Positions 94-39,390 of a stretch of DNA of 45,768 nucleotides are shown piece after piece. The stretch's first letter is position 1. Each line of letters starts with the position of its first letter. The position numbers were made by a program, and so were the translations under genes. This DNA is from Telmatospirillum sp. Lineage in GTDB: Bacteria > Pseudomonadota > Alphaproteobacteria > Rhodospirillales > Magnetospirillaceae. Location of the stretch: positions 1-45,768 of the forward strand of contig WASQ01000090.1 of assembly GCA_009712185.1 (NCBI GenBank), read 5' to 3'. The notes beneath the pieces were generated by a model that saw only the letters and a list, made by a program, of their open reading frames with translations, did no database searches and was not told the origin of the DNA.

Positions 94-131
94 CTGCGCC
101 GATCGGTGTCGACCGGCGCAGGTTGGTATCA
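94..131 (-). repeat. stop-codon-overlapping palindrome downstream of hppA
   Basis: Read on the minus strand, the hppA stop codon opens the motif TGATACCAACCTGCGCCGGT. Its arm CTGCGCCGGTC pairs with GATCGGCGCAG (94-121; 11 bp with one G.U pair, six-base loop). No T-run follows, so it is not a textbook intrinsic terminator. The plus-strand bases near 71-80 (TGATTCCAAC) resemble a displaced outer arm. It belongs to a family also found at 4340, 13281, 15043, 15467, 29263 and 39370. Confidence 0.7.
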
Positions 132-2210
132 GCCGGCGACGATCGCCAACAACAGAAGCGCCACGATATTGATGATCTTGATCATCGGGTTGACGGCCGG
201 GCCGGCGGTATCCTTGTAGGGATCGCCAACGGTGTCGCCGGTGACCGCCGCCTTATGGGCGTCGGACCCCTTGCCGCCATGGTTGCCGTCTTCAATGTAC
301 TTTTTGGCGTTGTCCCAGGCGCCACCGCCCGACGTCATGGACAAGGCCACGAAAAGACCGGTCACGATCGTGCCCAGCAGCATTGCACCCAGAGAGGAGA
401 AGGCCGCCGTCTGTCCGGCGACGGAATACACCACCAGATACAACACGACCGGGGCCAGAACAGGCAGAAGCGAGGGGACGATCATTTCCTTGATCGCCGC
501 CCGCGTCAGCATGTCGACGGCACGGCCGTAATCCGGCTTCGCCGTGCCGGCCATGATGCCGGCGATTTCCTTGAACTGACGGCGCACTTCGATGACGACG
601 GAACCGGCCGCGCGGCCGACCGCCATCATCCCCATCGCGCCGAACAGATAAGGCAGCAGACCGCCGATGAACAGACCGATGACGACGAAGGGGTCCTGAA
701 GCGAGAAGGACACCGACAGATTCGGGAAGTAATGGTGAAGATCCTCGGTGTAGGCCGAGAACAGCACCAGCGCCGCAAGACCGGCGGACCCGATGGCGTA
801 GCCCTTGGTGACGGCCTTGGTGGTGTTGCCGACGGCGTCCAGGGCATCGGTGATCTTGCGGACGTCCTTGGGAAGATCCGCCATCTCGGCGATGCCGCCG
901 GCGTTGTCGGTGACAGGGCCATAGGCGTCGAGCGCCACCACGATCCCGGCCAACGCCAGCATGGTCGTCGCCGCGATCGCGATGCCGTAAAGGCCGGCGA
1001 CCAGATAGGTCACAATGATGCCGACAGAGATCACCAGCACCGGAAGCGCCGTTGCCTCCATCGAGACCGCGAGGCCCTGGATGACGTTGGTGCCATGACC
1101 GGTGGTCGAGGACAAGGCGACACTGCGCACCGGACGATAATCGGTCCCGGTGTAATATTCGGTGATCCAGACCAGAAGACCGGTGATAACAAGACCGACG
1201 ACAGAGCAGATGAACAGGGACTTCACCGAAATGGTGAGGCCGCTGGTGGTCGTGAAGACGGCATCAAAGCTGCCGAACAGCCACTGCGCAACCAGTCCGA
1301 TCGCCACCAGGGACAAAAGACCGGTCGCGATCAATCCCTTGTAAAGGGCACGCATGATCTTGTTCGACGAATCGAGACGAACGAAGAAGGTGCCGATGAC
1401 CGACGCGATAATGCAGACGCCGCCGATCAACAGCGGGAACAGCATCAGCTTTTCCTGGTCGGCCCCGGAGAAGAAAATAGACCCCAGCAGCATGGTCGCC
1501 ACGGTCGTCACGGCATAGGTTTCGAACAGGTCGGCGGCCATACCGGCGCAATCGCCGACGTTATCGCCGACGTTATCGGCGATCACCGCCGGATTGCGCG
1601 GGTCGTCCTCGGGAATCCCCGCCTCGACCTTGCCCACCAGATCGGCGCCGACATCGGCGCCCTTGGTGAAGATGCCGCCGCCCAGACGGGCGAAAATGGA
1701 AATCAGCGACGCGCCAAAGGACAGCGCGACGAGTCCCTCGAGCAGCGACCGCCCCTCAAATCCTGCATGACGAAGCGTGGTGTAGTACCCCGTCACGCCC
1801 AGGAGCCCCAGACCAACCACCAGCAGGCCGGTCACCGCGCCCGAGCGGAACGCCACGGACAAAGCGGGGGCCAGACCGCCCGAACGGGCCGCCTCGGCGG
1901 TACGGACGTTGGCCCGGACAGAAACATTCATGCCGACATAGCCGGCGACGCCCGACAGCACCGCACCGATGACATAGCCGACGGCGACGTGAAGTCCCAG
2001 CCGCCAGCCGAGAATGACGCCGACGACAATGCCGACGATGCCGATGGTGGTGTATTGGCGGTTGAGGTAGGCGCGCGCGCCTTCCTGCACAGCCGCCGCG
2101 ATCTCTTGCATACGGCTATTGCCGGCCGGAGCCGACAGCACCGCGCGACCGGCCCAGCCACCGTAAAGTAGCGCCAGTACGCCGCAAGCCAAAACGAACG
2201 TGTAGGCCAT
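129..2210 (-). CDS. hppA: K+-independent membrane-bound proton-pumping inorganic pyrophosphatase
   Basis: This integral membrane enzyme couples pyrophosphate hydrolysis to proton translocation across the cytoplasmic membrane (or intracytoplasmic membranes) and so conserves energy from biosynthetic PPi. The 693-aa product is almost entirely hydrophobic helices, the usual size for the family. The substrate-binding signature is clear: [13 protein letters not shown] followed by [20 protein letters not shown]. The later [10 protein letters not shown] segment carries lysine where K+-dependent enzymes have alanine, which marks the K+-independent class known from Rhodospirillum rubrum. The ATG at 2210 was chosen because the protein starts MAYTF and is preceded by AGGAAGGACGAG; an in-frame extension upstream encodes non-membrane sequence. 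The gene stands alone, with a palindrome overlapping its stop codon. Confidence 0.97.
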
Positions 2211-2744
2211 TCTCGTCCTTCCTATCCCCTTGAGATGCCGTTCGATACATCCGCCCACCCCTTTCCACACACAAATCCGGGGGTGCGCACGGATGCCGGA
2301 TGAAGGCAGCGCCACAAACTGCCAGAATGAAAGACCCCACGCAACTGCGGGATCTGTCTTTTTTGTCTCCCTGTCTCAATATTGCTACAGAGGAACCGGG
2401 TGTTCAGGACTATTTTTGGTAAACTTGACTGACAAATTTGTCATATCTTTTGCAGAAATTGGTCAACTCATCATATCTTTTGGCGGCGGGGCGCAATTGG
2501 TCATATCTATTCCCATGGCCGCGCCAAACGGCGCACCACAGATTTCATATGATGATTTGGGAGCTGACTGTCCCCTTCCCTTTTTCGGCCATGATCGGAC
2601 CGAAGGCGTCCCCATGCAACCCGAGCATCCGCCATAGGACGCCGGAACCGGTGGCGCCGGGGCAACGGGGCGGTTAGCGGTCCCCGGTTCGACGGTCTTT
2701 TTTCATCCGTGCCGGACCCAAGACCCCCGCTGGGAGCAGGAAGG
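2211..2744. other. intergenic region between divergent hppA and the GNAT gene
   Basis: This 534-base stretch has no convincing gene. It holds the 5' leader of hppA (ribosome-binding AGGAAGG near 2216-2222 on the minus strand) and the 30-nt-periodic repeat block at about 2400-2525. Small open frames here have GC-shadow composition and no ribosome-binding site. Confidence 0.6.
2400..2525. repeat. 30-nt-periodic direct repeats with nested palindrome (possible relic IS21-type end or operator array)
   Basis: TCATATCTTT occurs at 2441 and 2471, and TCATATCTAT at 2501, spaced exactly 30 nt apart. The flanks are also alike (AATTTG, AACTCA, AATTGG before the unit). A perfect 14-bp palindrome TGACAAATTTGTCA lies at 2430-2443. 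The stretch begins TGTTCAGGAC at about 2401. Several evenly spaced repeats next to a TGT end are typical of IS21-family termini (established for that family). No transposase gene or opposite end is visible, so tandem operators upstream of hppA or of the acetyltransferase remain possible. Confidence 0.6.
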
Positions 2745-3305
2745 ATGTCCACACCCGTCCCGACATTGACCACCCCCCGATTGACGCTGATTGCGCTCAG
2801 CCTCACCGATTGCGCAGACTACGAACGCCACTTCATCGATTACGAGGTCATCCGGCACCTGGCGCGTGACGTGCCCTGGCCCTATCCGGCGGGCGGTGCG
2901 GCAAAATTTATCCGGGATCGCGTCCTGCCGGGCCAGGGACAGAACCGGTGGGTCTGGGGTCTGCACCGGCGGGAGGTTCCAGGCCTGATCGGCGCCGTCG
3001 ATCTGTGGAGAGAGGGACGGCCGGAACATCGCGGCTTCTGGCTGGGACGACAGTTCTGGGGACAGGGCCTGATGACCGAGGCGGTGATCAGGATCACCGA
3101 CTACGCTTTCGACGTTCTGGAGTTCGAGGAGCTGATCTTCGCCAACGCGCTCGGCAACGAACGGTCACACAATATAAAAGAGAGAACCGGTGCCGACCTG
3201 GTCGAGGTCCGCCCCGGTTCCTTCGTTGATCCCGCCTACGATCGCCGGGAAATCTGGCGCCTGACCCGTGATAAGTGGAGGCGATGGAAGAGGGGACCGG
3301 CGTAG
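2745..3305 (+). CDS. GNAT-family N-acetyltransferase (RimJ/RimL-like)
   Basis: The 186-aa product is a probable acetyl-CoA-dependent N-acetyltransferase. The N-terminal TPRLTLIALS strand matches the opening of RimJ/RimL-type enzymes. The segment FWLGRQFWGQGLMTEAV matches the acetyl-CoA pyrophosphate-binding region of these proteins, followed by the usual helix and the NERSHNIKERTGADLVE segment. The substrate (ribosomal protein, amino acid or drug) cannot be read from sequence. The ATG at 2745 follows AGGAAGG at close spacing and is preferred over an in-frame GTG at 2709. The gene has no operon partner and lies beside the AT-rich PEP-CTERM patch. Confidence 0.85.
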   Translation: MSTPVPTLTTPRLTLIALSLTDCADYERHFIDYEVIRHLARDVPWPYPAGGAAKFIRDRVLPGQGQNRWVWGLHRREVPGLIGAVDLWREGRPEHRGFWLGRQFWGQGLMTEAVIRITDYAFDVLEFEELIFANALGNERSHNIKERTGADLVEVRPGSFVDPAYDRREIWRLTRDKWRRWKRGPA

Positions 3306-3371
3306 TTTCTGCCGAAACAGCATTCAGACGGTGATATTTTACACCCTGATCACCCAGATATCCGTTGTCTA

Positions 3372-4103
3372 TCAGATTTTGACGAGACTCCGTGGCCTCG
3401 CGAACAACCCGATCCCGATCAAACCGACGCCGAAAAGGAAAATCGATACCGGCTCCGGCACATTTGACATCACGACGATGTTATTGACACCAAAACCTTC
3501 ATTCGGCCAAGGCTCGGAGGAGCGTCCGCTGAAACCGAATGAAATAGTTCCATCACCCCCAGCGGTGGCGTTTAGAGAAATATTATATATGCTCACCATG
3601 CTATAAGTTGATTGCATTCCAAATGCAGGAACATCGAATGCACTTTGACCAGAACCAGCCTTACTATTATTAACGGGATAGTTTTGCGTAGTTGTACTTG
3701 GCGCTAGGTATCCGGAAAACGTATTACTCATAATACTTTTATTATTTGCATATACGCTGAAAATATCCGGCCCATAGCCATCCTGCCCATCCCCATCAAG
3801 ACTATTTAGGGCGTAAAGATCAAAGTTTAGACGGACGAACTCATAAGGATTCAGACCGGTCAACCTCAGAGTCGCCGTAGCTCCTTGAGTAAGAACACCT
3901 AAAAAAGAAATCGGCTTATTACCGGTAAATGCGTCACCTGGTGCGGTTGTTACCGCATTTGCACCAGTGAACTCTGAAGCATGATGAGACGAAGAATTTT
4001 TAGAAAAATCGCTCGAATAAATAACACCCGCCGATGCCTTATCAAAAATTCCGCAAATTGATAGTAGGAGAGCAAATGCTATAATTTTTATATTATTTAT
4101 CAT
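3372..4103 (-). CDS. PEP-CTERM sorting-domain secreted protein, AT-rich
   Basis: The 243-aa product has an N-terminal signal peptide (about residues 1-25, ending near KASAG) and a C-terminal PEP-CTERM signal: VPEP, a hydrophobic helix (VSIFLFGVGLIGIGLF) and a basic end (ARPR). PEP-CTERM proteins are exported and processed by an exosortase, usually in exopolysaccharide-producing bacteria (established knowledge); no exosortase gene is in this window. The middle is rich in Ser, Thr, Asn and Gly, with no recognised catalytic motif. Base composition is far more AT-rich than its neighbours, suggesting horizontal transfer. The ATG at 4103 is used because GGGG and GAG precede it; a TTG lies two codons upstream. 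Confidence 0.85.
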   Translation of the reverse strand: MINNIKIIAFALLLSICGIFDKASAGVIYSSDFSKNSSSHHASEFTGANAVTTAPGDAFTGNKPISFLGVLTQGATATLRLTGLNPYEFVRLNFDLYALNSLDGDGQDGYGPDIFSVYANNKSIMSNTFSGYLAPSTTTQNYPVNNSKAGSGQSAFDVPAFGMQSTYSMVSIYNISLNATAGGDGTISFGFSGRSSEPWPNEGFGVNNIVVMSNVPEPVSIFLFGVGLIGIGLFARPRSLVKI

Positions 4104-4339
4104 TCTCAAACCCCATCAGCCAAATTGATGCCACTCCCAATTGAGTCGCGCAACGCAAACTCTTTTGATTGGTGGTCGCTTGAGCAATATCGATTATCAT
4201 TTATTAAAATTTTATGAAATCATTCACATTACCAGATGCACGCGGAAAACCATTTTTCAGGCAGTCTGCGACATGGTCGCGAACGCCGAACTCCGCCACA
4301 TTTTTATTCATAAGCAGTTCAGCGGTATCCCTGTACCAG
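4104..4339. other. AT-rich spacer upstream of the PEP-CTERM gene
   Basis: The AT-rich composition of the PEP-CTERM gene continues to about 4330 and then changes abruptly to the GC-rich pattern of the rib operon. It presumably holds the PEP-CTERM promoter. No gene, repeat end or tRNA remnant was recognised. Confidence 0.45.
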
Positions 4340-4378
4340 CCCGCGCCGATCAGATCTGATCAGCGCGGGTTAGCATCA
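4334..4378 (-). repeat. stop-codon-overlapping palindrome after the fliL-like gene
   Basis: On the minus strand the stop codon begins TGATGCTAACCCGCGCTGAT. The arms CCCGCGCTGATCAG and CTGATCGGCGCGGG (4340-4369) pair over 14 positions with one G.U, and the outer sequence continues symmetrically as GCTGGTACA. It is the most complete two-sided copy of the family and probably serves as the 3' end of the long rib operon transcript. Confidence 0.75.
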
Positions 4379-4843
4379 CCGGTCGTAAAGCGACTTGATG
4401 ACCACGTCGCGGACGGAATTGTCCCCGAACATCTTGTCGGCCACTTTCCGAAGATGCTGGTGGATCGCCTCGCGGTCGGTTTCGGACCGCGTGTCCGCAT
4501 GCTGGGGAACGAAGTCATAGAGATCGACCAGGATGGCATTCTGGAGACGGGGAAGTTGGGCGCCGATCTTGGGCGCGGCCGCCTCCGTCACGACGATGGA
4601 CAGATCCATGCCAACCTGCCGGCCGATGGCCCGGCTGGACACCAGGGGAATAATGAAAGTGCCAAGATCGTAGGTGCGGTCCTTGACGACCGGAGGCGGT
4701 GGCGGGGCTTCCTTCTTCGCCGTGTCCGTCTTCGATTGATGGATCAGATCGGGAAACGGTCCCATCCCGAACGCCGACAGACCACCGATCACCCCGACGC
4801 CCAGGACCAGAAGCAGTACGACGATCAGGATGATCTTCTTCAT
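4376..4843 (-). CDS. FliL-like flagellar basal-body-associated membrane protein
   Basis: The 155-aa product has one N-terminal membrane helix (residues about 3-27), a proline-rich linker (PPPPPVV) and a periplasmic domain with the FliL pattern: YDLGTFIIPLVSS, a central LSIVVTEAAAPKIGAQLPRLQNAILVDL-type helix region, and a conserved C-terminal VRDVVIKSLYDR. FliL proteins stabilise the stator around the flagellar motor (family knowledge). The ATG lies three bases after the thiL stop, so it is the last gene of the rib-nusB-thiL operon rather than of a flagellar cluster. The motA-motB stator genes lie 14 kb away. Family assignment is fairly secure; a role at the motor is inferred. Confidence 0.75.
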   Translation of the reverse strand: MKKIILIVVLLLVLGVGVIGGLSAFGMGPFPDLIHQSKTDTAKKEAPPPPPVVKDRTYDLGTFIIPLVSSRAIGRQVGMDLSIVVTEAAAPKIGAQLPRLQNAILVDLYDFVPQHADTRSETDREAIHQHLRKVADKMFGDNSVRDVVIKSLYDR

Positions 4844-4846
4844 CGC

Positions 4847-5833
4847 CTATCCGCCAAAATGACGATAACCGCCACCCCCCAGCGGCAGTGACCGTCCGGC
4901 CGCGTCCACGGCCGTCACACCCCTGTCCTCAATGATCCGCCCGATTTTGGTCAAGCGCAAGTCAAGCCTCCGCCCGACCTCGGCGAGCTGGCCGGCGGCG
5001 ACGGCGGGCGCCGTGAACAGAAGTTCGTAATCGTCACCACCGGTCAGCGCCAGATCGATCCCCCCCAGGCCGAAGGCCATCGCCTCCTCTGCGGCCGCTG
5101 ACAGCGGCACATCGGACGCCTCGACCACCGCCCCGACATGGGAGGTCTCGCAAATATGGCCGAGATCGCCGATCAGTCCGTCGGACACATCCATGGCCGC
5201 GCGGGCAAGGCCCCGGAGGGCGGGCCCCAACGCGCAACGCGGTGTCGGCAGACGATATCGGCCAAGCAGACCATCCGCCGCGGCAGCGGACAGACCCGAC
5301 GCCCGCCCCTTGGCCACCAGGAGCCCGAAGGCCGCGTCGCCAATGGTCCCCGATACCCAGATCTCATCCCCCGGCCGGGCGGTCGATCGAAGCAAAGCAC
5401 CGCCCTTCGGCACCGATCCGATGGCGGTCACGGACAGGGTCAGCGGACCGGGTGTCGCGACCGTATCGCCGCCGATCACCGCAACCCCGAAGGCCGAACA
5501 GTCCTGGCGCAAGCCGCCGGCGAACGCATCCAGCCAGCCGGCATCGACATCGCCCGGAAAACAGGTCGCCAGCAGAACCGCAAAAGGGGTCGCCCCCATC
5601 GCGGCAAGGTCGGACAGATTGACGCGGAGAAGCTTGCGGGCGATCAGGTCGGGCGGGTCGTCGGGCAGGAAATGAACGCCCGCCACCAACGCGTCGGTGG
5701 TGATCGCCCACTCCGTCCCGACTGGTCCATCGATCAGAGCCGCGTCGTCAGACAGCCGCAGCGCGCCCGGATGAGAAAGGGACAGAGGAACGAACAGACG
5801 CTCGATCAGAGAAAACTCATCGAGACCGGACAT
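4847..5833 (-). CDS. thiL: thiamine-monophosphate kinase
   Basis: ThiL phosphorylates thiamine phosphate with ATP to give the cofactor thiamine diphosphate. The 328-aa product is full length, with the PurM-like fold signatures: DDAALI near the N-terminus, TTDALVAGVHF, RVNLSDLAAMGATP, GGDTVATPGP, MDVSDGLIGDLGHI and LTGGDDYELLF. The ATG at 5833 gives the typical start SGLDEFSLIERLF and overlaps the nusB stop by 17 bases, which implies translational coupling; an in-frame upstream extension is shadow sequence inside nusB. The nusB-thiL order is a conserved alphaproteobacterial arrangement. Confidence 0.97.
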   Translation of the reverse strand: MSGLDEFSLIERLFVPLSLSHPGALRLSDDAALIDGPVGTEWAITTDALVAGVHFLPDDPPDLIARKLLRVNLSDLAAMGATPFAVLLATCFPGDVDAGWLDAFAGGLRQDCSAFGVAVIGGDTVATPGPLTLSVTAIGSVPKGGALLRSTARPGDEIWVSGTIGDAAFGLLVAKGRASGLSAAAADGLLGRYRLPTPRCALGPALRGLARAAMDVSDGLIGDLGHICETSHVGAVVEASDVPLSAAAEEAMAFGLGGIDLALTGGDDYELLFTAPAVAAGQLAEVGRRLDLRLTKIGRIIEDRGVTAVDAAGRSLPLGGGGYRHFGG

Positions 5834-6353
5834 CGTCGCCCATTTCCTGGGCCCGGACCACATGGGCAATCCGGTCGAGGACGGCATTGACCAGACCCGG
5901 TTCCGGCCCGGCATAAAAGGCATGGGCGATATCGACATATTCCGAAATCACGACACGCACCGGAACATCCGGGCAATCCGCCAGTTCAAAGGCGCCGCAC
6001 CGCAGGATCGAACGCAGCACCGCCTCCAGCCGCTCGACGGTCCATTCCCCCGACAGTGCCCCGGCAATCATACCATCCAGCGCGTCGAGCCGGATCAAAG
6101 CCCCCCGGAAAATCGCCGCCAGCAACAGGGCGTCGGGCTCCGCCAGAAGATGCTCCTCCTCGGTTTCGGTATAGTCATCGGCCGCCGCACCGGGAACCAG
6201 CACCCGCGATCCGATTCCATAGGTCAGGAAGTCGTCAAGGATGCGATCCGGCGACTGTCCGGTGAGTTCGCTTTGATAAAGGGCCTGCACGGCGGCAAGT
6301 CGCGCTGTGGAGCGCCGGACGGCCGATTTCTTCCTGCCTTTGTTCGCTGTCAT
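5817..6353 (-). CDS. nusB: transcription antitermination factor NusB
   Basis: NusB binds boxA RNA together with NusE (S10) and keeps RNA polymerase processive on rRNA operons. The 178-aa all-helical product has the basic N-terminus (KKSAVRRSTARLAAVQALYQSEL) and the C-terminal pattern ERLEAVLRSILRCGAFEL, VVISEYVDIAHAFY and GLVNAVLDRIA. It is slightly longer than the E. coli protein because of an acidic insertion (DDYTETEEEHLL). The start codon overlaps the ribH stop in an ATGA, so the two are coupled. Confidence 0.96.
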   Translation of the reverse strand: MTANKGRKKSAVRRSTARLAAVQALYQSELTGQSPDRILDDFLTYGIGSRVLVPGAAADDYTETEEEHLLAEPDALLLAAIFRGALIRLDALDGMIAGALSGEWTVERLEAVLRSILRCGAFELADCPDVPVRVVISEYVDIAHAFYAGPEPGLVNAVLDRIAHVVRAQEMGDDVRSR

Positions 6354-6811
6354 TTCGGTAAAAGACTAAGCTCGCGTTTGATGTCAACCATGCGCAGGCA
6401 CGCCCGCGCCGCCTGGCCGCCGAAATTCCGCCGGTCCGGCGAACAGCGTTCCATAGCTTGCGCGCGGTTATGCACGGTCAAAATGCCATTGCCAACAGCC
6501 AAGGTGTAATCCAGGGCCAATTTCTGAATACCGGACATCGCCTCGCGGCAGATATGCTCGTAATAATCCGTTTCTCCGCGGATCGCACAACCAAGAGCAA
6601 TGTACCCCGCATAGCGCTCGTCGGTCGCGCGGAGTTCCATCGCGCGGATCGCGTAACGGATCGCTGACGGAATTTCGAGAATGCCGGGAACGATCAGTCT
6701 CTTATATCCGGCCCCGACAGCAGCAAGCTCCCTCACGGCTCCCTTGACCAGATTGTCCGTGATCTCGTCGTAAAACCGCGATTCGACGATCAGAATGCGT
6801 ACACCCGCCAT
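6350..6811 (-). CDS. ribH: 6,7-dimethyl-8-ribityllumazine synthase
   Basis: RibH condenses 5-amino-6-ribitylaminouracil with 3,4-dihydroxy-2-butanone 4-phosphate, the penultimate riboflavin step. The 153-aa product has the family order: ILIVESRFYDEITDNLVKGA, VPGILEIPSAIRYA, the YIALGCAIRGETDYYEHI segment including the phosphate-binding GET, and VGNGILTVHNRAQAMER. The usual FGVLT is replaced here by NGILTV. The ATG at 6811 sits behind AGGAGAGGCA; an upstream in-frame extension lacks homologous sequence. It is co-transcribed with ribBA and nusB. Confidence 0.96.
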   Translation of the reverse strand: MAGVRILIVESRFYDEITDNLVKGAVRELAAVGAGYKRLIVPGILEIPSAIRYAIRAMELRATDERYAGYIALGCAIRGETDYYEHICREAMSGIQKLALDYTLAVGNGILTVHNRAQAMERCSPDRRNFGGQAARACLRMVDIKRELSLLPK

Positions 6812-6966
6812 TGCCTCTCCTCTGCCCCGGGGCTGTCGGCCGATGCCATGACGGCACCCCCTCCACCAGATCGGTTCCCGGAAACTGACACAAAACAAGA
6901 ATAGCGGTTCTTTATTCCGCCGTCGTCCCCGTAATCCCGGAACGACGGCAAAAAGCGGATGCGGCG

Positions 6967-8103
6967 TCAGGCCTTTCGCGCGGGCTCCGGCACAATGTCG
7001 GCGATCGGACGCTGCCCCACCACACGCAGGCCATAACCGTCGAGACCGATGATCGTCTTTTGAGTGTTGGACAAAAGAATCATCTCGGAAATACCCAGGT
7101 CGATCAGAATCTGGGCGCCGATGCCGTAGTCACGCAACTGCCCCGGTTCCTCGGTTCCGGCGATCCGGGCGCGAAGGCGGTCGCTGAGACTGGTCGGCAG
7201 GGCCTCGCGAAGCAGCAGAACCACGCCGCGCCCCTCGGTCGCGATCATTCCCATCGCCTTGTGAATCAGGGCACCCTTGCCGGAATCGGCGTCCCCCAGA
7301 ACGTCATCGAGGATATTGAGCGCATGAACGCGGGCGGGGACCGGCCCACCGGAGGACAGGTCACCCTTGATCAACGCGACATGCTCGGCACCGGCCACGA
7401 CATCGCGATAGCCCACCATTCTCCAGTCGCCGCCATTCAGCGAATGGAAATCCGTTTCCAGGCTTCGACAGACGATTTTGTCGTGGCGGCGTCGATAGGC
7501 GATGAGATCGGCAATCGTACCGATCTTCAGACCGTGGAACTGGGCGAACGCGATGAGGTCCGGAGTCCGGGCCATGGTCCCGTCATCGTTCATGATCTCG
7601 CAGATGACCCCGGCCGGAGTCAGACCGGCCAGCCGCGCGACGTCGACCGCAGCCTCCGTATGGCCGGCGCGGACCAGAACGCCACCCTCGCGGGCCATCA
7701 GCGGAAACACATGTCCGGGACTGACGATGTCCTCCGCGCCACTTGCCGGATCGATCGCCACCGCCACCGTCCGGGCGCGGTCCGCCGCAGAAATGCCGGT
7801 GGTCACACCTTCGCGCGCCTCGATGCTGACGGTGAACGCCGTCTGATGCCGCGACGCATTGGACTGAGCCATCATGGACAGGCCCAGATGCGCAATCCGG
7901 TCCTGCGTCATGGCGAGACAGATCAGGCCACGGCCATGCTTGGCCATGAAATTCACGGCATCGGCCGACGCCATGTCCGCGGGGATCACAAGGTCTCCCT
8001 CGTTCTCCCGGTCCTCATCATCGATCAGGATGAACATCCGGCCCTTGCGGGCCTCCTCGATGATGTCCTCGATCGGCGCCATTGCGTCGTGCGTTTTTGG
8101 CAC
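6967..8103 (-). CDS. ribB: 3,4-dihydroxy-2-butanone-4-phosphate synthase fused to a degenerate GTP cyclohydrolase II domain
   Basis: The N-terminal domain (about residues 8-205) makes DHBP from ribulose 5-phosphate and keeps its active-site pattern: [27 protein letters not shown] and [12 protein letters not shown]-like residues. The C-terminal domain (about 210-370) has the GTP cyclohydrolase II length but lacks its zinc cysteines: where active enzymes read RVHSECLTGD followed by a CDCG box, this one reads [10 protein letters not shown] and DADSGKG. The later [11 protein letters not shown] segment also loses the QEGRGIGL catalytic stretch. It is therefore likely bifunctional in layout but monofunctional, like proteins called RibBX. 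The start is a GTG at 8103 behind AGAAGGA; an ATG at 8082 is an alternative. Confidence 0.92.
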
Positions 8104-8107
8104 GGAG

Positions 8108-8695
8108 TCAGTCCTTCTCCATCAGCCGCGCGACATAGCGCGCCAGCATGTCGATCTCAAGATTTACCCGCGATCCCACCTGATAACCGCCAAAGGCCGT
8201 CACGGAACGAGTGTGGGGGATGATATTGACACCGAACCTGTTCCCTTCAACCTCGTTGACCGTGAGCGATACGCCATCGATGGCGACAGACCCCTTGGGC
8301 GCGACATAGCGTTTCAGGCTGTCGGGAACCTCGAAGGTGAACCGCAGGGACTCATTTTCCGGACGGATCGCCGCCACGGTCGCCACGCCATCGACATGAC
8401 CCGACACGATATGCCCGCCCAGTTCGTCACCGATCCGCATGGCCCGTTCGAGATTGACGCGGGTTCCCGGCACCCAGCCGCCGAGAGTGGTCTTATCCAG
8501 GGTCTCCGCCGACGCCTGCACCTGGAACCAGTCGGCCCCCCGGTCGATGACCGTGAGACAGACGCCGTTATTGGCGATCGACGCGCCGATCGGCACCTCG
8601 GCCGCGTTGAACGAGGTCCGGACTTTGAACAGAACGTCTCCCTTGCCGGAAATCTCCAGAACCTCACCAAGATCGGTAACAATGCCTGTGAACAT
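8108..8695 (-). CDS. ribE: riboflavin synthase alpha subunit
   Basis: This enzyme dismutates two 6,7-dimethyl-8-ribityllumazine molecules into riboflavin. The 195-aa product starts with the diagnostic MFTGIVTDLGEV and contains two lumazine-binding repeats: the first with SIANNGVCLTV (residues about 40-50), the second with GSVAIDGVSLTVNEVEGNRFGVNIIPHT. GHVDGVATV between them is also characteristic. The start at 8695 is four codons inside the longest frame because MFTGIV is invariant. It lies between ribD and ribB, with four bases separating it from the ribB GTG. Confidence 0.97.
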   Translation of the reverse strand: MFTGIVTDLGEVLEISGKGDVLFKVRTSFNAAEVPIGASIANNGVCLTVIDRGADWFQVQASAETLDKTTLGGWVPGTRVNLERAMRIGDELGGHIVSGHVDGVATVAAIRPENESLRFTFEVPDSLKRYVAPKGSVAIDGVSLTVNEVEGNRFGVNIIPHTRSVTAFGGYQVGSRVNLEIDMLARYVARLMEKD

Positions 8696-8775
8696 GTTGT
8701 TTTCCAATTCCCTATTACTGTCCTGCGACTCCCGCGTCCTGGCGTTTCCAAAGGCCGCCCGACGGAGTCGTCGCC

Positions 8776-9885
8776 CTATTCCCGGGTAAAGAACTCAAAC
8801 AGGTCGCCCGCCATATCGGCAACAGACAGACGGGTGAAACGCGGGGCCTGCGCCAACTGATCGATCCCGAAAGAGACGGCGGCCGGCAAAGCGTCCCCGC
8901 CCAGCAGAAGCGGCGCCCGGAACCAAGCCACCCGGTCCACCAGATCCGCTCGAAGCAACGCCGCGGCCAGATGGGCCCCCCCTTCCACCAGAATACGGGT
9001 CAGACCGCGTTGCCCCAGTTCGGCCATCGCGGCACCGAGATCGATCCGGCCGCCGCCGGACAGGGGAACCGGAATCACCGTGACCCCGCAATCCCGATAG
9101 GCCTCAAAGCGATCGGGATCGGCATCCTCACGTGTGATGACCCAGGTCGGCAGATCGGACGCGGTGGAGACGAGCTTCGACGTCAGGGGCAGACGGAGAT
9201 GTCCGTCGATCACCACCCGCACCGGCGACCGGTCGGAAAGCCCCGGAAGCCGGCAGGTCAGTTCGGGATTGTCGACCACGGCCGTGGCGCTGCCGACCAG
9301 GATGGCATCGTTCTCCGCCCGGAGCCGGTGTCCGGCATCGCGCGCCGCCGGTCCGGTAATCCATTTGCTTTCGCCGGTGTGCGTGGCGATGCGGCCGTCG
9401 AGCGAGCTGGCCACCTTCCATGTCACCAGGGGACGCCCCTTGAGGACGCGCTGGAAAAAGCCCGCGTTGATCTCCGCCGCCGCCTCGGCGCAAATGCCGA
9501 GACAGACCTCGACGCCGGCGCGGGACAATCGCTGCAGGCCGCGGCCGGACACCCGGGGATCGGGATCCTCAAGCGAGACCACGACGCGGGAAACGCCGGC
9601 GGCGATCAGGGCGTCGGCGCAGGGCCCCGTCTTGCCGCGATGGCTGCAGGGCTCCAGGGTGACATAAGCCGTCGCGCCGCGGGCCGCCTCCCCCGCCATG
9701 GCCAATGCCCGGGTTTCGGCGTGCGGACGCCCCCCTTTGGCGGTCCAGCCACGCCCGACCACCCGGCCGCCGGCGACGAGGACGCAGCCGACGGACGGAT
9801 TGGGCCAGGTCTGGCCCAATCCACGCCGCGCGAGCGCGAGCGCCGCGCGCATATGGTCGATATCAGTCGTCGTCGAGAATGTCAC
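8776..9885 (-). CDS. ribD: bifunctional diaminohydroxyphosphoribosylaminopyrimidine deaminase / 5-amino-6-(5-phosphoribosylamino)uracil reductase
   Basis: RibD performs the deaminase and reductase steps of riboflavin synthesis. The N-terminal cytidine-deaminase-like domain shows the zinc motifs HAETRAL and [11 protein letters not shown]. The C-terminal reductase domain (from about residue 150) shows [43 protein letters not shown] and the NADPH-binding [14 protein letters not shown]. At 369 aa it is full length. The GTG at 9885 is preferred because AGGAAAG lies about eight bases upstream; it overlaps nrdR by 23 bases. An ATG at 9852 has no comparable ribosome-binding site. Confidence 0.96.
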
Positions 9886-10330
9886 CGCCGAGCTTTCCTA
9901 CGAAATCCTCGAAGTCTTTGGCTTCATGGAAATTCCGGTAAACCGAGGCGAACCGCACATAGGCGACCTGATCGAGGTTGGCAAGAGCCTCCATCACCAG
10001 TTCGCCGATCACCGTCGTCGAAATCTCGGCCTCGCCGCAGCTTTCCAGACGCCGCTGAATGCTGTTGACAATTCTTTCCACCCGATCCGGATCGACGGGC
10101 CGCTTGCGGACGGCGATCGCAATCGAACGGGCCAGCTTGTCCCGGTCAAAGGGGGCACGCTGCCCATTCTTTTTCACGACGATCAGTTCGCGCAACTGCA
10201 CCCGTTCGAATGTCGTGAAGCGGGACCCGCAGGCGGTACAGAAACGCCGCCGGCGAATCGCAGAGTTATCCTCCGTCGGCCGCGAGTCCTTGACCTGCGT
10301 GTCGTCCTGACCGCAAAACGGACAGCGCAT
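9863..10330 (-). CDS. nrdR: transcriptional repressor NrdR of ribonucleotide reductase genes
   Basis: NrdR binds NrdR boxes upstream of nrd genes and responds to ATP/dATP. The 155-aa product opens with the zinc ribbon [17 protein letters not shown] and the second cysteine pair in [18 protein letters not shown]. The ATP-cone follows (about residues 49-139: [18 protein letters not shown] and [13 protein letters not shown]). It has the typical length, plus an acidic tail (DILDDD). It is nested between glyA and ribD, the standard alphaproteobacterial position, and shares the operon transcript. Confidence 0.97.
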
Positions 10331-10378
10331 TCTCCCCCCCTATCATTTCTTCCGGTCCCCTGGCAGGTTTCCCGGCCG

Positions 10379-11671
10379 TCACGGCTGATAGATCGGAAAT
10401 CTCCGGCAAAGATCGTCGACCTGGGCGTGAACCGCCTTTTCCTGGGCTGAATTGTCATCGGGAGAAACCGTCAGCCCGTCAAGAACGTCGCCGATCAGGT
10501 TTCCGACCAGCCGGAACTCCTCCACCCCGAATCCGCGGGTTGTCGCGGCCGGCGTACCCAACCGGATCCCGGAGGTGACAGTCGGCTTTTCCGGGTCGAA
10601 GGGGATTCCATTCTTGTTGCAGGTGATGCCGGCGCGCTCCAGGCTCGCTTCGGCGGCCTTTCCGGTCAGCTTCTTCGGACGCAGGTCGACCAGCATCACA
10701 TGCGTATCGGTCCCTCCCGACACGATATCGAGACCGCGCCGCACCAGCGTATCGGCGAGAACCGCCGCGTTGTCCTTAACCGCGCGCGCATAGGCTTTGA
10801 ACTCGGGGCGAAGGGCCTCACCCAGCGCCACCGCCTTGGCGGCGATCACATGCATCAGGGGACCGCCCTGCAAGCCCGGAAAAATGGCCGAATTGATCTT
10901 CTTGCCGATCTCAAGGTCGTTGGACAGGATCATGCCGCCCCGCGGACCGCGCAATGTCTTATGGGTGGTCGTGGTCACCACATGGGCGTGGGGCAGCGGG
11001 CTGGGATGGACGCCGCCCGCGACCAGTCCGGCGAAATGGGCCATATCGACCATGAAATAAGCCCCCACCTCGTCGGCAATGGCGCGGAAGCGGGCGAAAT
11101 CAATGGTCCGCGGATAGGCGGAGCCGCCGGCGATGATCAGCTTCGGCCGGTGTTCCCGGGCAAGGCGCAGGACTTCATCGAAATCGATCAGCGCGTCCTG
11201 CTTGCGCACGCCATACTGAACGGCCTTGAACCATTTGCCCGACATGTTCGGGGCGGCGCCGTGGGTCAGATGCCCGCCGCTCGCCAGTCCAAGTCCCATG
11301 AAAGTGTCGCCGGGTTGCAGCAGGGCCAGGAACACCGCCTGATTGGCCTGCGACCCCGAATTCGGCTGCACATTGGCATAGGCGCAGTCGAAGAGCGCCC
11401 GGGCCCGGTCGATCGCCAGTTGCTCCGCCACATCGACAAATTCGCAACCGCCGTAATAACGTTTGCCGGGATAGCCTTCCGCATATTTGTTGGTCAGAAC
11501 CGACCCCTGGGCCTCGAGAACCGCCTTCGAAACGATGTTCTCCGAGGCGATCAGCTCGATCTGCCCCTGCTGGCGCTCAAGCTCCCGGCCGATGGCGGCG
11601 AAAATTTCGGGATCGGCATCCGCAAGCGGGGCTCCGAAGAACTGTTGAAGAGAGCCATGAGCGATCGACAT
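10379..11671 (-). CDS. glyA: serine hydroxymethyltransferase
   Basis: GlyA interconverts serine and glycine using tetrahydrofolate, supplying one-carbon units. The 430-aa PLP enzyme shows the family signature sequence: [41 protein letters not shown], the PLP lysine in [16 protein letters not shown], and [17 protein letters not shown]. The ATG at 11671 follows AAGGAAGGTTCAG. It lies 42 bases after rpiB and 48 bases before nrdR, so it is within the same operon. Supplying glycine and formyl units fits the purine/riboflavin context. Confidence 0.98.
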
Positions 11672-11713
11672 CTGAACCTTCCTTCCTAACTCTTACCCGG
11701 CCCGCCGGCCGGC

Positions 11714-12187
11714 CTACTTTCCCTGGGGGACCGGAGAACACCCGCGACGGTCCGCGCCCATCTTGGCAACCCGGGCCGCATGCCGCCCCCCTTCAAACGG
11801 GGTCGACAGGAACACGGACAGGCAATCCCTGGCAACCTCGACGCCCGTGGTGCGACCACCGAACACAATGACATTGGCGTCATTGTGCTGGCGCGCCAGC
11901 CTCGCGCCGAAGGCATCGTGAACCAGGGCGGCGCGCAGAACCGGATACCGGTTTGCGGCGATGCTGATCCCGATCCCGGTGCCACACAAAAGCACGCCAA
12001 CTTCCGCCCGCCCGTCACCGATGGCTGCGGCCATGGCATCGGCATAGTCCGGATAATCGACGGATTGGGGACCGTCGGTCCCAAGATCGAGCACAGACAT
12101 CCCCTGGGAAACGAGCGTCTCCTTCAGAATGGTTTTCAATTCGTAGCCCCCATGGTCGGAGGCCAGCGCGATAATTTTCGAAGACAT
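11714..12187 (-). CDS. rpiB: ribose-5-phosphate isomerase B
   Basis: RpiB interconverts ribose 5-phosphate and ribulose 5-phosphate, the latter being the substrate of RibB downstream. The 157-aa product has the LacA/RpiB motifs ALASDHGGYELK, VDYPDYADAMA, the catalytic cysteine in GVLLCGTGIGISIAANR, and HDAFGARLARQHNDANVIVFGGR. The ATG at 12187 begins the conserved domain; a 58-codon upstream extension is not conserved-looking. It is the first gene of the operon running to the fliL-like gene. Confidence 0.95.
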   Translation of the reverse strand: MSSKIIALASDHGGYELKTILKETLVSQGMSVLDLGTDGPQSVDYPDYADAMAAAIGDGRAEVGVLLCGTGIGISIAANRYPVLRAALVHDAFGARLARQHNDANVIVFGGRTTGVEVARDCLSVFLSTPFEGGRHAARVAKMGADRRGCSPVPQGK

Positions 12188-12630
12188 GTCCACTGAAACA
12201 CTAAATAAGGTGTAAGCAGGGTCTAGATACCATATGTCGAACAGCCTTGCCAAGGAACCACAAACCCTTTGAGCCCGTGGATCCGGGCGGGATCCCCTCC
12301 CTTTGAGCGAAACGCGACCGGACGCGGCAGGACTGCCGCCATCGAGCTCCTGCCGCACCATTGTTGTCGGCGTGCCATGATTTGGAACGCCACGAACGAT
12401 ATTCCTGTCAATTTGTGGGGGTATTGAACCACGACGATCGCCCCCAAGTCATACCACGAATGAAGTACTAAGGACTTCCGTCCTTGGAAGGATCTTTCGC
12501 GTGTTTTTTATTGGTTCCCGCGGCTGCGTAAAGAATTCAGTATTCAATTGAACCGTTTTTGCATTGACAGCAGAATCCCATCATGCGATTAGTTATAGCA
12601 TTCGATATTCTTGTATCAGGTCGCAGCAAA
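12188..12630. promoter_or_regulatory. divergent rpiB-mucR intergenic region
   Basis: This 443-base gene-free stretch must hold the promoter of the rpiB-glyA-rib operon (minus) and that of mucR (plus). For mucR, TTGACA at 12564-12569 is followed after 17 bases by GATTAG at 12587-12592, a plausible sigma-70-type pair. The part from about 12400 to 12620 is AT-rich, as expected for a target of MucR-type proteins, so autoregulation is possible. No riboswitch fold was recognised. Confidence 0.45.
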
Positions 12631-13098
12631 ATGAGCGAAGCTAACGTGGAAAAGATTTCGCGCGACGACATCCTTCGCATGGCTGTCGACGTCGTTGCCG
12701 CTTATGTCAGCAAGAATCCAATTCCCTCCGGGCAGATTCCCGAGGTCATCCACACAGTCTACAATTCATTGAGCCTGCTGGATGGCCAGGTTCCGGAAGT
12801 CAAGCCGGAGGCCCCTCGTCCTGCCGTGCCGGTGAAAAAGTCCATCACTCCGGACTACATCGTCTGCCTGGAGGACGGGAAGAAACTGAAGATGCTGAAG
12901 CGGCATCTGCGCACCACTTATAACATGACGCCCGACGAATACCGGGCGAAGTGGAGCCTTGCCCCCGACTATCCGATGGTGGCGCCGAACTATGCCGCGC
13001 AGCGATCGGATTTCGCCAAGAAGATCGGTCTGGGCCGTAAAGGTGCGGAAGTTCCTGCCGGCGACAAGCGGGGACGGCGCCCGCGCGGCGGACGCTGA
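12631..13098 (+). CDS. MucR/Ros-family transcriptional regulator with an eroded zinc site
   Basis: The 155-aa product is a global-regulator-type DNA-binding protein of the MucR/Ros family. The N-terminal half (IL RMAVDVVAAYVSKNPIP-type helix) matches the oligomerisation region. The C-terminal half holds the prokaryotic zinc-finger domain: DYIVCLEDGKKLKMLKRHLR, TTYNMTPDEYRAKW and DYPMVAPNYAAQRS. Of the Ros ligands, Cys79 and His92 are present, but the second Cys is Asp82 and the His pair is Thr96-Tyr97, so metal binding looks lost. The chosen ATG begins MSEANVEK; its ribosome-binding site is weak. The tail is basic (RKG, KRGRRPRGGR). Confidence 0.9.
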   Translation: MSEANVEKISRDDILRMAVDVVAAYVSKNPIPSGQIPEVIHTVYNSLSLLDGQVPEVKPEAPRPAVPVKKSITPDYIVCLEDGKKLKMLKRHLRTTYNMTPDEYRAKWSLAPDYPMVAPNYAAQRSDFAKKIGLGRKGAEVPAGDKRGRRPRGGR

Positions 13099-13280
13099 GA
13101 AGCCCCCTCCCTGACGCTCCGGCTGGCGGAACAGGGGCCGGTTCGGGCACAGGGTTCCTGACGTCACTGTCACAGCCCCCCAGGGGGGCAAGGATGGCGG
13201 TCTGCGTCTGACGTCTTCGGGGTGCGTCCCTGCGCGGTACCGGTTTGAGCCGGTCGAAGCCGGCCCTCGAGATCCTTCGA

Positions 13281-13325
13281 TAATTTCAAGCTGCAATGAG
13301 CCACCCTCATTGCAGCTTGAAATTA
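13281..13325 (-). repeat. 20-bp perfect inverted repeat starting at a stop codon
   Basis: TAATTTCAAGCTGCAATGAG (13281-13300) and its exact complement (13306-13325) flank the five-base loop CCACC. The complement includes the TAA stop codon of the 62-aa gene. The GATGAG/AATGAG-type inner end links it to the copies after metY and galM. No T-run follows the stem on either strand. Confidence 0.85.
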
Positions 13326-13511: not shown

Positions 13512-13604
13512 CTCCACCTTCCAGCCGTAATATCAACCGGTGCTGATTGCCCCGCAGGCGGCGCCACTATACCCCGGGATGCACCCGCGCGAAAACCGCG
13601 GACA

Positions 13605-13752
13605 TGACGCTTCGATATACAACATAATTTATATGTTCTTTTGTTTGTTTTCACATTTTTATATCGCACTAACGCTTGACACCTCCGCAACATCAGTGCC
13701 TTACTCGATCCCGCAGAAGTCGCATCGCCCGAACAAAAAAAGGACCGAGCTC
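13605..13752 (+). promoter_or_regulatory. AT-rich metY leader with candidate promoter and inverted repeats
   Basis: The region contains AACATA-ATTTA-TATGTT (a small dyad), the wider dyad CGATATA...TATATCG, and TTGACA at 13676-13681 with poor -10 candidates (TTACTC near 13701). The dyads could bind a methionine or SAH-responsive repressor, but none can be named. I looked for a SAM-II aptamer because it often precedes metY-type genes in alphaproteobacteria, and did not find its conserved core. Confidence 0.4.
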
Positions 13753-15045
13753 ATGAGCGTCGCCAGTCACCATCCCGAGACCCTGGTCTTACACGCGGGA
13801 TATCGCGCCGACCCGGCCACCAACGCCGTCGCTGTTCCGCTTTATCAAACCACCTCCTACCAGTTCAAAAACACGGAACAGGCGGCTGACCTGTTCGGCC
13901 TGCGCGAGCTCGGCAACATTTACACGCGCATCATGAATCCGACCACCGACGTGCTGGAACAGCGCGTCGCGGCGCTGGAAGGCGGGGTGGCCGCGCTGGC
14001 CGTGGCCTCGGGTCAGGCCGCCAGCACTTTTTCGATCCTGAATGTTGCCGAGGCGGGCGACAATTTCGTTACCTCGACCGATCTCTATGGCGGTACCTGG
14101 AATCTGTTTGCCAACACCTTCAAACAGTTCGGAATCGAAGCCCGTTTCGTCGACCCGGCAGACCCGGAAAACTTCCGCCGCGCCACCGATTCCCGCACCC
14201 GGGCCTATTACGCCGAGACACTTCCCAATCCGAAGCTCCAGGTCTTCCCCATCGCCGAAGTCGCAAAAATCGGCAACGAGCTTGGCGTACCGCTGATCGT
14301 CGACAATACCGCCGCCCCCATCATCGCTCGGCCGATCGATCACGGCGCCTCCATCGTGGTCTATTCCACGACGAAATACATCGGGGGCCACGGCACCTCG
14401 ATCGGCGGCCTGATCGTGGACTCCGGCAAGTTCGACTGGGAAAAGCACGCCGACCGTTTCCCGCTGCTCAACCAGCCGGATCCCAGCTATCACGGCGCCG
14501 TCTGGACCCAGGCCGTCAAGCCACTGGGACCGATCGCCTATGTCCTGCGCGCCCGCGTGATCCTGCTGCGTGACGTCGGCGCCGCCGCCAGCCCGTTCAA
14601 CGCCTTCCAGACCATCCAGGGCCTGGAAACACTGCCGCTCAGGATCCGCGAACATGTCCGCAACGGGCAGGCCGTGGCTGACTATCTGGCGAAGCATCCG
14701 AAGGTCATCCGCGTCATTCATCCGTCGCAGCAGACCGGCGAGGCGCGCCGACGCGCCGATGCCGTCCTGAAAGGCGGCTATGGCGCCCTGGTGGGGTTCG
14801 AGGTGAAGGGCGGTGTCGACGCCGGACGACGTTTCATCGATGCCCTGAAACTGTTCTATCATGTCGCCAATATCGGCGACGCGCGAAGCCTCGCCATTCA
14901 TCCCGCCAGCACGACCCACTCCCAGCTTTCGCCGGAAGACCAGCTCGCCACCGGCGTGACGGAGGGCTATGTCCGGCTTTCCATCGGCATCGAGCATATC
15001 GATGACATCATCGCCGATCTCAGCCAGGCGCTGGAGGTCGCGTAA
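13753..15045 (+). CDS. metY: O-acetylhomoserine sulfhydrylase (Cys/Met metabolism PLP enzyme)
   Basis: The enzyme makes homocysteine directly from O-acetylhomoserine and sulfide. The 430-aa product shows the family features: PLYQTTSYQFKNTEQAADLF, YTRIMNPTTDVLEQRVAALEGG, SGQAASTFSILN, DNTAAPIIARPIDHGA and the PLP lysine in VVYSTTKYIGGHGTSIGG. Near the C-terminus GDARSLAIHPASTTHSQLS is the sulfhydrylase-type ending. The start at 13753 (MSVASHHPETLVLHAG) is the conserved one; an upstream open frame of 71 codons runs through the AT-rich leader. It is a single-gene unit, with a palindrome beginning at its stop codon. Confidence 0.95.
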   Translation: MSVASHHPETLVLHAGYRADPATNAVAVPLYQTTSYQFKNTEQAADLFGLRELGNIYTRIMNPTTDVLEQRVAALEGGVAALAVASGQAASTFSILNVAEAGDNFVTSTDLYGGTWNLFANTFKQFGIEARFVDPADPENFRRATDSRTRAYYAETLPNPKLQVFPIAEVAKIGNELGVPLIVDNTAAPIIARPIDHGASIVVYSTTKYIGGHGTSIGGLIVDSGKFDWEKHADRFPLLNQPDPSYHGAVWTQAVKPLGPIAYVLRARVILLRDVGAAASPFNAFQTIQGLETLPLRIREHVRNGQAVADYLAKHPKVIRVIHPSQQTGEARRRADAVLKGGYGALVGFEVKGGVDAGRRFIDALKLFYHVANIGDARSLAIHPASTTHSQLSPEDQLATGVTEGYVRLSIGIEHIDDIIADLSQALEVA

Positions 15046-15078
15046 GACCAAGCGGCGATGAGGATGACTCATCGCCGC
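15043..15078 (+). repeat. stop-codon-anchored hairpin after metY
   Basis: Starting at the TAA stop codon the sequence reads TAAGACCAAGCGGCGATGAG. GCGGCGATGAG (15052-15062) pairs perfectly with CTCATCGCCGC (15068-15078) around the loop GATGA. No T-run follows. It closely matches the galM-side copy at 15467-15501 and probably ends the metY transcript. Confidence 0.8.
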
Positions 15079-15118
15079 TGATCCCGCCCGATGACGATCC
15101 GCGAGCGGGTGGGAGGGC

Positions 15119-15393: not shown

Positions 15394-15466
15394 TATTTTT
15401 CTCCCGCGCAGAGTCCCATGTTCTGGAAATTTTTTAATAAGCCAGTTCACTGAGTGGTTGTCTGTT

Positions 15467-15501
15467 CCAACCGGCGATGAGCAGCACTCATCGCCGGTTG
15501 G
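15467..15501 (-). repeat. 15-bp perfect hairpin downstream of galM
   Basis: CCAACCGGCGATGAG (15467-15481) and CTCATCGCCGGTTGG (15487-15501) are exact complements around CAGCA. On the minus strand the preceding bases give CAATACCAACCGGCGATGAG, matching the family outer motif, but here the element starts about 30 bases past the stop codon instead of on it. It probably terminates the galM transcript. Confidence 0.8.
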
Positions 15502-15530
15502 TATTGCCAGTTATTTCCCGCCTTGAGGTC

Positions 15531-28839: not shown

Positions 28840-29297
28840 CGTCATCCTCCTCAGCCGATCGCAGTCTTTGTCAGGATCCCGTTCCCGCAGGGTCGCCGGA
28901 TAACCCTCCGGCAGACCGGTCCGGGGGGCTGCGACACCGGAGGGACCGATGCCAGCCGGAAGGACCAGTGCCAGCCGGACTGGAGCAGAGCGTGGAAGCG
29001 AGGGGCGTCCGGACGCCGGGAACGGCGTCTGTCGCAGACAGCGGAGCGACAGACGCGCGATCTATATTGCGTCTTCGGGATCGTGATCACAACCCCGGTC
29101 TGGCCCCACACCAGGGTCATCAACCGCTATCCGCCCGCAGGCCCGGGGGTGGGCCCGCCGGCAAACAGCGAGCGGGAAGCCCAAGGATTTCGGAGAAACT
29201 TGGCTCCGGGCCGCCCGAGGACGTCGGTGATCGGCCCCGATCACCGGGATATGGCATGACGGCTGTGCTGATCGGTCCCGATCAGCACAGGCTGGTA
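28840..29297. other. gene-free, hairpin-rich spacer before the helicase
   Basis: This 458-base stretch has no supported gene. It contains perfect dyads: GGCGTCCGGACGCC (29004-29017), GCGTCTGTCGC/GCGACAGACGC (29025-29035 with 29046-29056), CGGTGATCGG/CCGATCACCG (29225-29246) and the stop-codon palindrome at 29263. TGCCAGCCGGA is also repeated directly near 28948 and 28970. It may hold a structured non-coding RNA or only 3' ends and the inhA promoter. Confidence 0.5.
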
Positions 29298-29300
29298 TCA
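29263..29300 (-). repeat. stop-codon-anchored 13-bp perfect palindrome after the DEAD helicase gene
   Basis: On the minus strand the stop codon starts TGATACCAGCCTGTGCTGAT. CTGTGCTGATCGG and CCGATCAGCACAG are exact complements around two bases (29263-29290). Same family as at 94, 4340 and 39370. Confidence 0.8.
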
Positions 29301-35869: not shown

Positions 35870-36012
35870 TGCGTTTGTCATCCTCCCTGGCGGCGACTGT
35901 TTTGGGCTTATCCCGCAGCCGTCCTTTTGACACAGGCCAGGGTATCGCAACCCCGGCTTTCACACCAGTGACGCGCAACACCCGATAACCACACACGCAA
36001 TAGGAATATAGA

Positions 36013-36097
36013 GCATTGACACAAACAAAAGAGTCACGTGGCAGGTCAATGCATTTAAGCCCGAGCGGCGCTTGAGCCGGACAGGAATGGAGCGGAA
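36013..36097. repeat. dispersed ACAAACAAAAGAGTC element, copy 3
   Basis: GCATTGAC (36013-36020), core ACAAACAAAAGAGTCAC (36021-36037) and GTCAATGC (36045-36052) form a perfect 8-bp inverted repeat round the core. Compared with copy 1, T-A becomes C-G in both arms together (GCATTG/CAATGC versus GCATCG/CGATGC), a compensatory change. AGCGGA recurs at 36091, close to its relative position in copies 1 and 2. Confidence 0.65.
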
Positions 36098-39022: not shown

Positions 39023-39369
39023 GCCCTCAAACCCGTTTATTCCCGCGGGCCCGTTTTCCCGCGGGCGGCCCATCACCGACCGGACAGTCGCCACCGATGG
39101 TCCGGCCCCGGCGTCACCGGCCGGCCGGTGACCGGCTCCTTGTCTCACACTTTAAAGAGGGTTCGCCCCGGACGGAAGAGGGGTTCGCCCGATGCGCCGG
39201 GGCAATCGCCCCTCAACCGCCCCGGTTGACCGGACAGCCGGTCCCCTTGCGAGTGGGACGGACATCCCCCCGCCTCCGACGCGAAAGAGGAGGACGCCAG
39301 GACCGACGGATGTCCGACAGCCGACGCACAAGGGCGGCGCGGACAGGTTTCGATCAGCGCGGGTCGGTA
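39023..39369. other. gene-free spacer with palindromes upstream of the kinase
   Basis: These 347 bases hold a perfect 20-bp palindrome GTCACCGGCCGGCCGGTGAC (39113-39132), a near-duplicate GAGGGTTCGCCC/GAGGGGTTCGCCC pair (about 39158 and 39178), and a CGGACATCC/GGATGTCCG dyad (about 39263 and 39307). The kinase promoter should lie here, but no convincing -35/-10 pair was recognised. Confidence 0.45.
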
Positions 39370-39390
39370 TCAGTCGGGCGAACCGGCGGG
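39370..39390 (-). repeat. stop-codon-anchored repeat after the PAS-like gene (half copy)
   Basis: Reading leftward from the gene end, the minus strand starts TGATACCGACCCGCGCTGAT at the stop codon and continues GAAACCTGTCCGCGC to 39335. The outer motif matches the family; the pairing arm GCGCTGAT/GTCCGCGC is imperfect (one mismatch, one G.U). The listed span is the stop-codon side; the element runs from about 39335 to 39372. Confidence 0.55.

Follow-up and report, generated by a model that had tools for sequence, protein, structure and literature searches.

Seven palindromes in a 45,768-nucleotide stretch of Telmatospirillum sp. DNA (contig WASQ01000090.1; hereafter the window), six of which begin exactly on the stop codons of unrelated genes, are very probably shortened or degraded members of a single MITE family from the Telmatospirillum group, and this reading includes their position at stops, explained by insertion at TNA. 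Copies are dispersed, a 3-bp TNA sequence is duplicated at their flanks, a near-identical population exists in another genome (G013), the same stop positions are used in relatives without the element, and the stems covary.

In the first-pass annotation, six palindromes were placed at stop codons and a seventh about 30 bases past galM. The six positions are the ends of open reading frames, with the motif standing directly after each stop, and the seventh palindrome starts 27 bases after the galM stop (TAG, 15531-15533). The outer motif that the copies were said to share is also real: ATACCAACCNGCGNTGA has 10 matches in the window with at most three mismatches, against 0.89 expected from 100 dinucleotide shuffles (shuffle maximum 3). 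When the window was searched with a profile made from 28 genomic copies at least 140 bp long, the copies of hppA, fliL, metY, galM, the DEAD-box helicase and the PAS-like frame were matched with E values from 2.4e-14 to 0.0075. The elements and the stops on which they begin are as follows:

75..128, minus strand: shortened element after hppA, 54 bp (profile match 128-88, E 1e-4); the flanks on this strand differ, TGA (129-131, the stop) against TCA (72-74).
129..131, minus strand: TGA stop of hppA, the target triplet TNA (ortholog comparison).
4334..4375, minus strand: shortened element after the fliL-like gene, 42 bp; flanks TGA and CAG, no identical triplets.
4376..4378, minus strand: TGA with which the fliL-like gene stops, serving as target triplet; the end residue is shared by three orthologs.
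13284..13322, minus strand: perfect palindrome, 39 bp, after a 62/64-aa frame (TAA, 13323-13325), of the G002-like right-hairpin type; flanks TAA (the stop) and TTA.
15043..15045, plus strand: TAA stop of metY, again the target triplet; the ortholog stops at the same residue in each of three relatives.
15046..15110, plus strand: truncated element after metY, right hairpin and some interior (profile match 15110-15047, E 1.5e-7); no second end recognised in this element.
15465..15503, minus strand: solo right-hairpin element, 39 bp, 27 bp past the galM stop (motif and profile); flanks on this strand CAA and CAG, not at a stop.
29139..29297, minus strand: two element pieces in tandem after the DEAD-box helicase gene, a left end at 29297-29255 and a longer piece at 29244-29139 (profile).
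29298..29300, minus strand: TGA stop of the helicase gene, target triplet; the sole ortholog found (G004, TAA) has the same end residue.
39323..39369, minus strand: left end of the element, truncated and diverged, following the PAS-like frame (TGA, 39370-39372); profile E 0.0075.

The weakest family member is the copy after the 62-aa frame, whose profile E value of 0.15 falls below the inclusion threshold; it was put in the family because its arm GCAATGAG..CTCATTGC is the arm found in the relative G002. Both the 62-aa and the PAS-like frame are weak as genes (the gene finder scored the former low and did not call the latter), and their C-termini are conserved in no relatives. Identical flanking triplets occur in none of the four window copies that have two recognisable ends. 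Upstream of metY, the sequence TAATATCAACCGGTGCTGA (13530-13546) is an end motif with two mismatches and may be a remnant copy.

What is the complete form of the element? Scanning the 6.1-Mb genome of the same organism (the own genome, G000) with the end motif, in place of a covariance model, gave 144 matches against 2 for the reversed motif (at most two mismatches). Many of the matches form outward-facing pairs about 135-150 bp apart. A full copy measures about 140-154 bp, runs from TACCA to TGGTA with a hairpin at each end, has the layout TACCAGCC-hairpin-CCTCAGGC-...-GGGTTTCTCCGAAACCCTTGG-...-hairpin-GGTTGGTA, and contains a conserved central hairpin, GGGTTTCTCCGAAACCC. BLAST with one copy found at least 75 matches in the own genome (the best 40 of 172 candidates were scored), and a 145-bp copy found at least 41 long matches in G013 (the best 40 of 221 scored). 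The element is thus short, multi-copy and bounded by terminal inverted repeats, as a MITE should be, and the window palindromes are mostly shortened or decayed copies of this non-coding unit of about 150 bases.

Full copies reveal the target. In 34 own-genome pairs of at least 137 bp, which include one (L001 1478-1631) that is probably no real element, flank position -1 is A in 62 of 68 cases, position -2 can be any base and position -3 is T in 57 of 68; the triplets on the two sides are identical in 14 pairs (permutation mean 5.7, p 0.0004) and differ in 20. The copies of G013 are 92-100% identical to the query copy in 35 cases and 76% in one. There, TNA forms the left flank of every one of the 36 elements, and the triplets on the two sides agree in 31 (permutation mean 10.5; 21 at most in 20000 shuffles), the 36 being those kept from 40 loci after removal of copies cut by contig ends and of short partial matches. 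A palindromic extension instead of a duplication was ruled out, as reverse-complementary flank pairs number 0 of 36 in G013. Among 12 further genomes, counting loci whose ends fit the pattern and omitting L128 (right end mis-parsed), a false L257 match, a shorter L130 duplicate and the rows of G000 and G013, identical TNA flanks were found in 14 of 16 parsed copies, the two mismatches being L130 and L142. In the own genome, 57 of 144 ends have no preceding TNA. The 3-bp TNA flank repeat is a target site duplication of the kind that staggered cuts at TNA leave behind, and it gives the family the target duplication of fixed length (3 bp, TNA) that is a further mark of MITEs.

A search for an empty site, made for L317 in G023, found none; a different TACCA-ended element stands at the same stop. 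This one stop codon carries an element with TTA on both sides in G023 and an element of 145 bp in G013, and because the two genomes carry different elements there, several types of MITE may use a common transposase and a common target.

The stop codons themselves do not depend on the element. In the congeners G001, G002 and G004, the orthologs of hppA, fliL and metY stop at the residue at which the window proteins stop, the hppA ortholog with TGA, TAG and TAA, respectively, and no element was found in the 110 bases after the ortholog stops (hppA, fliL and metY in these three relatives and the helicase in G004). The same protein end without the element is found in relatives for 4 of the 6 genes, those with conserved ends. 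It had been suggested that the palindromes might be a common termination signal that also supplies the stop; this idea is not borne out, since the stop is present in element-free relatives for the four testable genes and the element occurs at stops in both orientations. A scan of window positions 1-20000 listed 23 terminator-like sites, among which were none of the five palindromes there, and no T tract was seen at the five. Rfam gave no match in the window; of the matches at five loci, a tRNA alone passed the gathering threshold (L290), and it lies outside the element, while a tpke11 match inside the element of L012 reached 22.2 bits against the 43 needed. More generally, a conserved 3′-end RNA signal (a terminator or an mRNA stabiliser) that evolved at gene ends, stop included, without mobility would fit the strong hairpins, their covariation across 15 sequences and the position directly at gene ends. 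We nevertheless regard it as very improbable in the face of the direct 3-bp duplications, the absence of the element at orthologous ends, the missing T tracts at those five sites and the scarcity of G-U intermediates described below. Both orientations are represented at the stops of G013 (9 and 7), which argues against a directional terminator in particular. Inserted copies may play a secondary part in the decay of mRNA.

How strongly, then, is the element drawn to stops? Genes were called with a codon-usage model trained and calibrated on 28 window genes and applied to G013 too, which calls only 71% of the own-genome stretches coding and probably misses genes. The own-genome ends are 145 distinct motif matches in 322,093 bases of stretches around the listed matches, not in the whole genome; the stretches partly overlap, and some control sites count twice. 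With one near-edge end left out, 144 ends were counted (138 with the other gene caller, seven being left out). Exactly after a called stop lie 17 of 144 ends in the own genome and 16 of 72 in G013 (16 of 36 elements), and every other distance upstream of the element is represented at most three times. Relative to non-coding TNA sites, the odds ratio for a stop is 10.7 in the own genome (17 of 87 TNA ends against 180 of 8135 sites) and 4.9 in G013 (16 of 69 against 53 of 909). Within 30 nt of a gene end, however, the difference is not significant in the own genome (17/25 against 180/352, p 0.15) and modest in G013 (16/20 against 53/106, p 0.015). The enrichment at stop codons, 5-11 times the odds of non-coding TNA sites, is thus mostly a matter of closeness to 3′ ends, and whatever bias the stop adds to this is weak. 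Frames running into the element's own TGA at +13 number 6 of 138 or 2 of 144 in the own genome, depending on the caller, and 7 of 72 in G013.

If insertion itself truly favoured stops or 3′ ends, over and above the choice of TNA, this would be in keeping with both odds ratios, with the excess near gene ends in G013 and with the different elements that G013 and G023 carry at one stop codon. We think such a preference unlikely, as the test in the own genome was not significant and selection against promoter and coding insertions alone gives an excess at 3′ ends.

A REP-like mobile element targeting gene ends was the other proposal of the first-pass annotation, and its two halves fared differently. 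Mobility agrees with the dispersal, the 3-bp duplication, the near-identical copies of G013 and the excess at stops, but the target is TNA and not the gene end itself; the likeness to REPs does not stand, as the head is not GTAG or CGTC, a target duplication is present and the copies do not flank RAYT-type genes. According to the available text of PMC3733652, REPs lie close to 3′ ends and the TAG of GTAG REPs can serve as a stop; CGTC REPs, defined by a CGTC head, a stem of 8-9 bp and a CCA tail, are there said to occur mostly in alphaproteobacteria, apparently without a dedicated transposase. Another paper (PMC12306157) deals with REPs of E. coli that lie no more than 15 nt from a stop. The TACCA family shares with CGTC and GTAG REPs, as the former source outlines them, the occurrence of palindromes near 3′ ends, whereas these REPs are 20-40 bp long with an unpaired tag and the TACCA family has a unit of about 150 bp, TACCA ends and a target duplication (PMC3733652). 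Assignment to the CGTC REPs was rejected, the CGTC head and the CCA tail not fitting the element sequences.

Movement of a REP/REPIN family by a RAYT (Y1) transposase, with a stop overlap like that of the TAG in GTAG REPs, would be favoured by two Y1_Tnp genes (PF01797) in the own genome, by the paired, inverted hairpins and by the published GTAG termini that provide a stop (PMC3733652, in the part available). We give this hardly any credence, however: the head is TACCA, and a Y1_Tnp match is absent in 10 of 19 searched relatives (present in 9), while an element match occurs in 18 of the 19. A copy lies within 1.5 kb of the Y1 locus in 1 of 10 cases among relatives, that of G013, whose copies are so dense that chance could account for it, and the 17-base motif was found at neither of the two own loci, with one 10-base match carrying a mismatch. 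Moreover, target duplications, which are not expected of RAYT transposition, occur in both the own genome and G013. The two own Y1_Tnp genes (L031 and L032, contig C86) lie in tandem 1.65 kb apart, have no link to the TACCA family, agree fully in roughly their first 150 residues and have near-identical DNA just upstream.

The enzyme that would move the MITE family was sought among four Pfam families. No transposase gene with paired TACCA ends, that is, no autonomous relative with the same ends, was found with PF13340 in 1 genome, PF01609 in 7, PF13359 in 12 (without any match) or PF13586 in 11. The paired-end scan covered 25 PF01609 loci and the PF13340 loci with one mismatch allowed; end pairs in L273 and L277 were taken as chance, since TNA does not stand on both sides and 11 and 13 of 20 end bases agree. 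At 29 PF13586 loci, exact TNATACC[AG] gave a single match each in L354, L355, L359 and L363, and no pair. Some of the transposase genes are flanked by other inverted repeats: TAGGACCTGTTGACA in L267, CTAGGTTCTG in L351 and a third type, presumably ISAs1-like, in L263 and L264. In its TNA target and 3-bp direct repeat the TACCA element resembles the IS1031 subgroup of IS5, which prefers TNA and makes a 3-bp repeat according to the accessible portion of PMC12016507. The one IS1031-group end printed there (PMC12016507), GAACCTG..., differs from the TACCA ends, and no transposase of the element was found here in the genomes listed.

Element matches were found in 29 of 99 genomes, the own genome included, with at most the best 8 candidates scored per genome. 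Within the family 27 of 54 other members match, and in other families of the order 1 of 44, by an end hairpin only; G013, of the same family but another genus, has a more uniform population of copies than the own genome. Fifteen copies from 13 genomes, with L142 left out, were aligned to a hand-written structure of four helices, in which 95.0% of the alignment cells are paired. Changes on both sides occur in 18 of 36 pairs (shuffled mean 8.8; slid structures 3 to 4), and 60 double-changed cells stand against 6 one-sided changes (G-U). Further pair types are not above the shuffles (28 against 26.0; 88/500). The small number of G-U intermediates hints at selection on DNA hairpins or at copying between arms. 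In G092 (L294-L301), of another family, a TACCAACC end hairpin is found on elements with a GGGGGCTTTGCCCCC interior, which suggests a wider set of elements with the same ends.

Tourist-like MITEs and PIF-Harbinger elements of eukaryotes make a 3-bp target duplication, and their transposases are related to IS5; the TACCA family is likened to them by that duplication. Among bacterial MITEs, Correia/NEMIS, RUP and YPAL, most of which have TA ends and are A+T-rich in the description available (PMC2229807), share with it a length below 200 bp, the lack of coding capacity, terminal repeats, target duplication and stem-loops. As compared with these MITEs, so far as that source describes them, the TACCA family has a TNA target, is GC-rich and possesses several hairpins that covary across genera (PMC2229807). 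No published description of the family was found within the literature and terms searched, and a plasmid collection gave no match for three element types.

Other repeats occur nearby. A second dispersed repeat, which starts AGGGCGTGTGAAAGAATCAG (window 15114-15220; L043 2590, minus strand; L263 2563) and has three fixed-pattern matches in the examined own-genome stretches, seems to cut off the metY element. The pattern AGTGGGGCGGNCGTCC has six matches and is also present in an inverted repeat that borders a transposase of L271. A GCATTGACACAAACAAAAGAGTCAC..GTCAATGC-like sequence occurs in three copies that are 71-77% alike (window 15312-15371, 25344-25378 and 36010-36069), the clearest with inverted ends GCATTGAC/GTCAATGC, and a similar sequence is present in L041; it is possibly a regulator site or another repeat.

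The following model would explain the position of the MITE copies. A trans-acting transposase, probably of the IS5/IS1031 type to judge from the target, would cut TNA with a 3-nt stagger and insert the element. TAA and TGA are TNA triplets, and insertion there would therefore keep both the stop and the protein: the first copy of the duplication would stay an in-frame stop, so that the protein would be unaltered and the insertion would survive, and insertions inside reading frames would mostly be lost. The stop pattern would then reflect target specificity and purifying selection, any further preference being modest at most, and the hairpins would matter more as DNA than as RNA. A bolder version, which we consider rather doubtful, is a transposition system in which folded DNA ends are recognised, hairpins are kept up by compensatory changes throughout the family and the stop codon is a favoured safe landing site; the G000/G013, G023 and G092 types would share only the TACCA ends and would all be served by one enzyme.

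Duplication of TNA can copy a stop codon and leave the protein intact, and this gives a reason why a palindrome may sit exactly on the stops of unrelated genes. What would be noted as 'REP-like repeats at gene ends' in these alphaproteobacteria becomes a testable question of transposition, in which a stop codon followed by TACCA serves as a marker of insertion, and attention is directed to a missing transposase. The compensatory changes indicate that a MITE has preserved its structure, and not its sequence alone, while a family diverged. If each insertion puts hairpins at the 3′ end of an mRNA, the decay of the message may hypothetically be affected as well.
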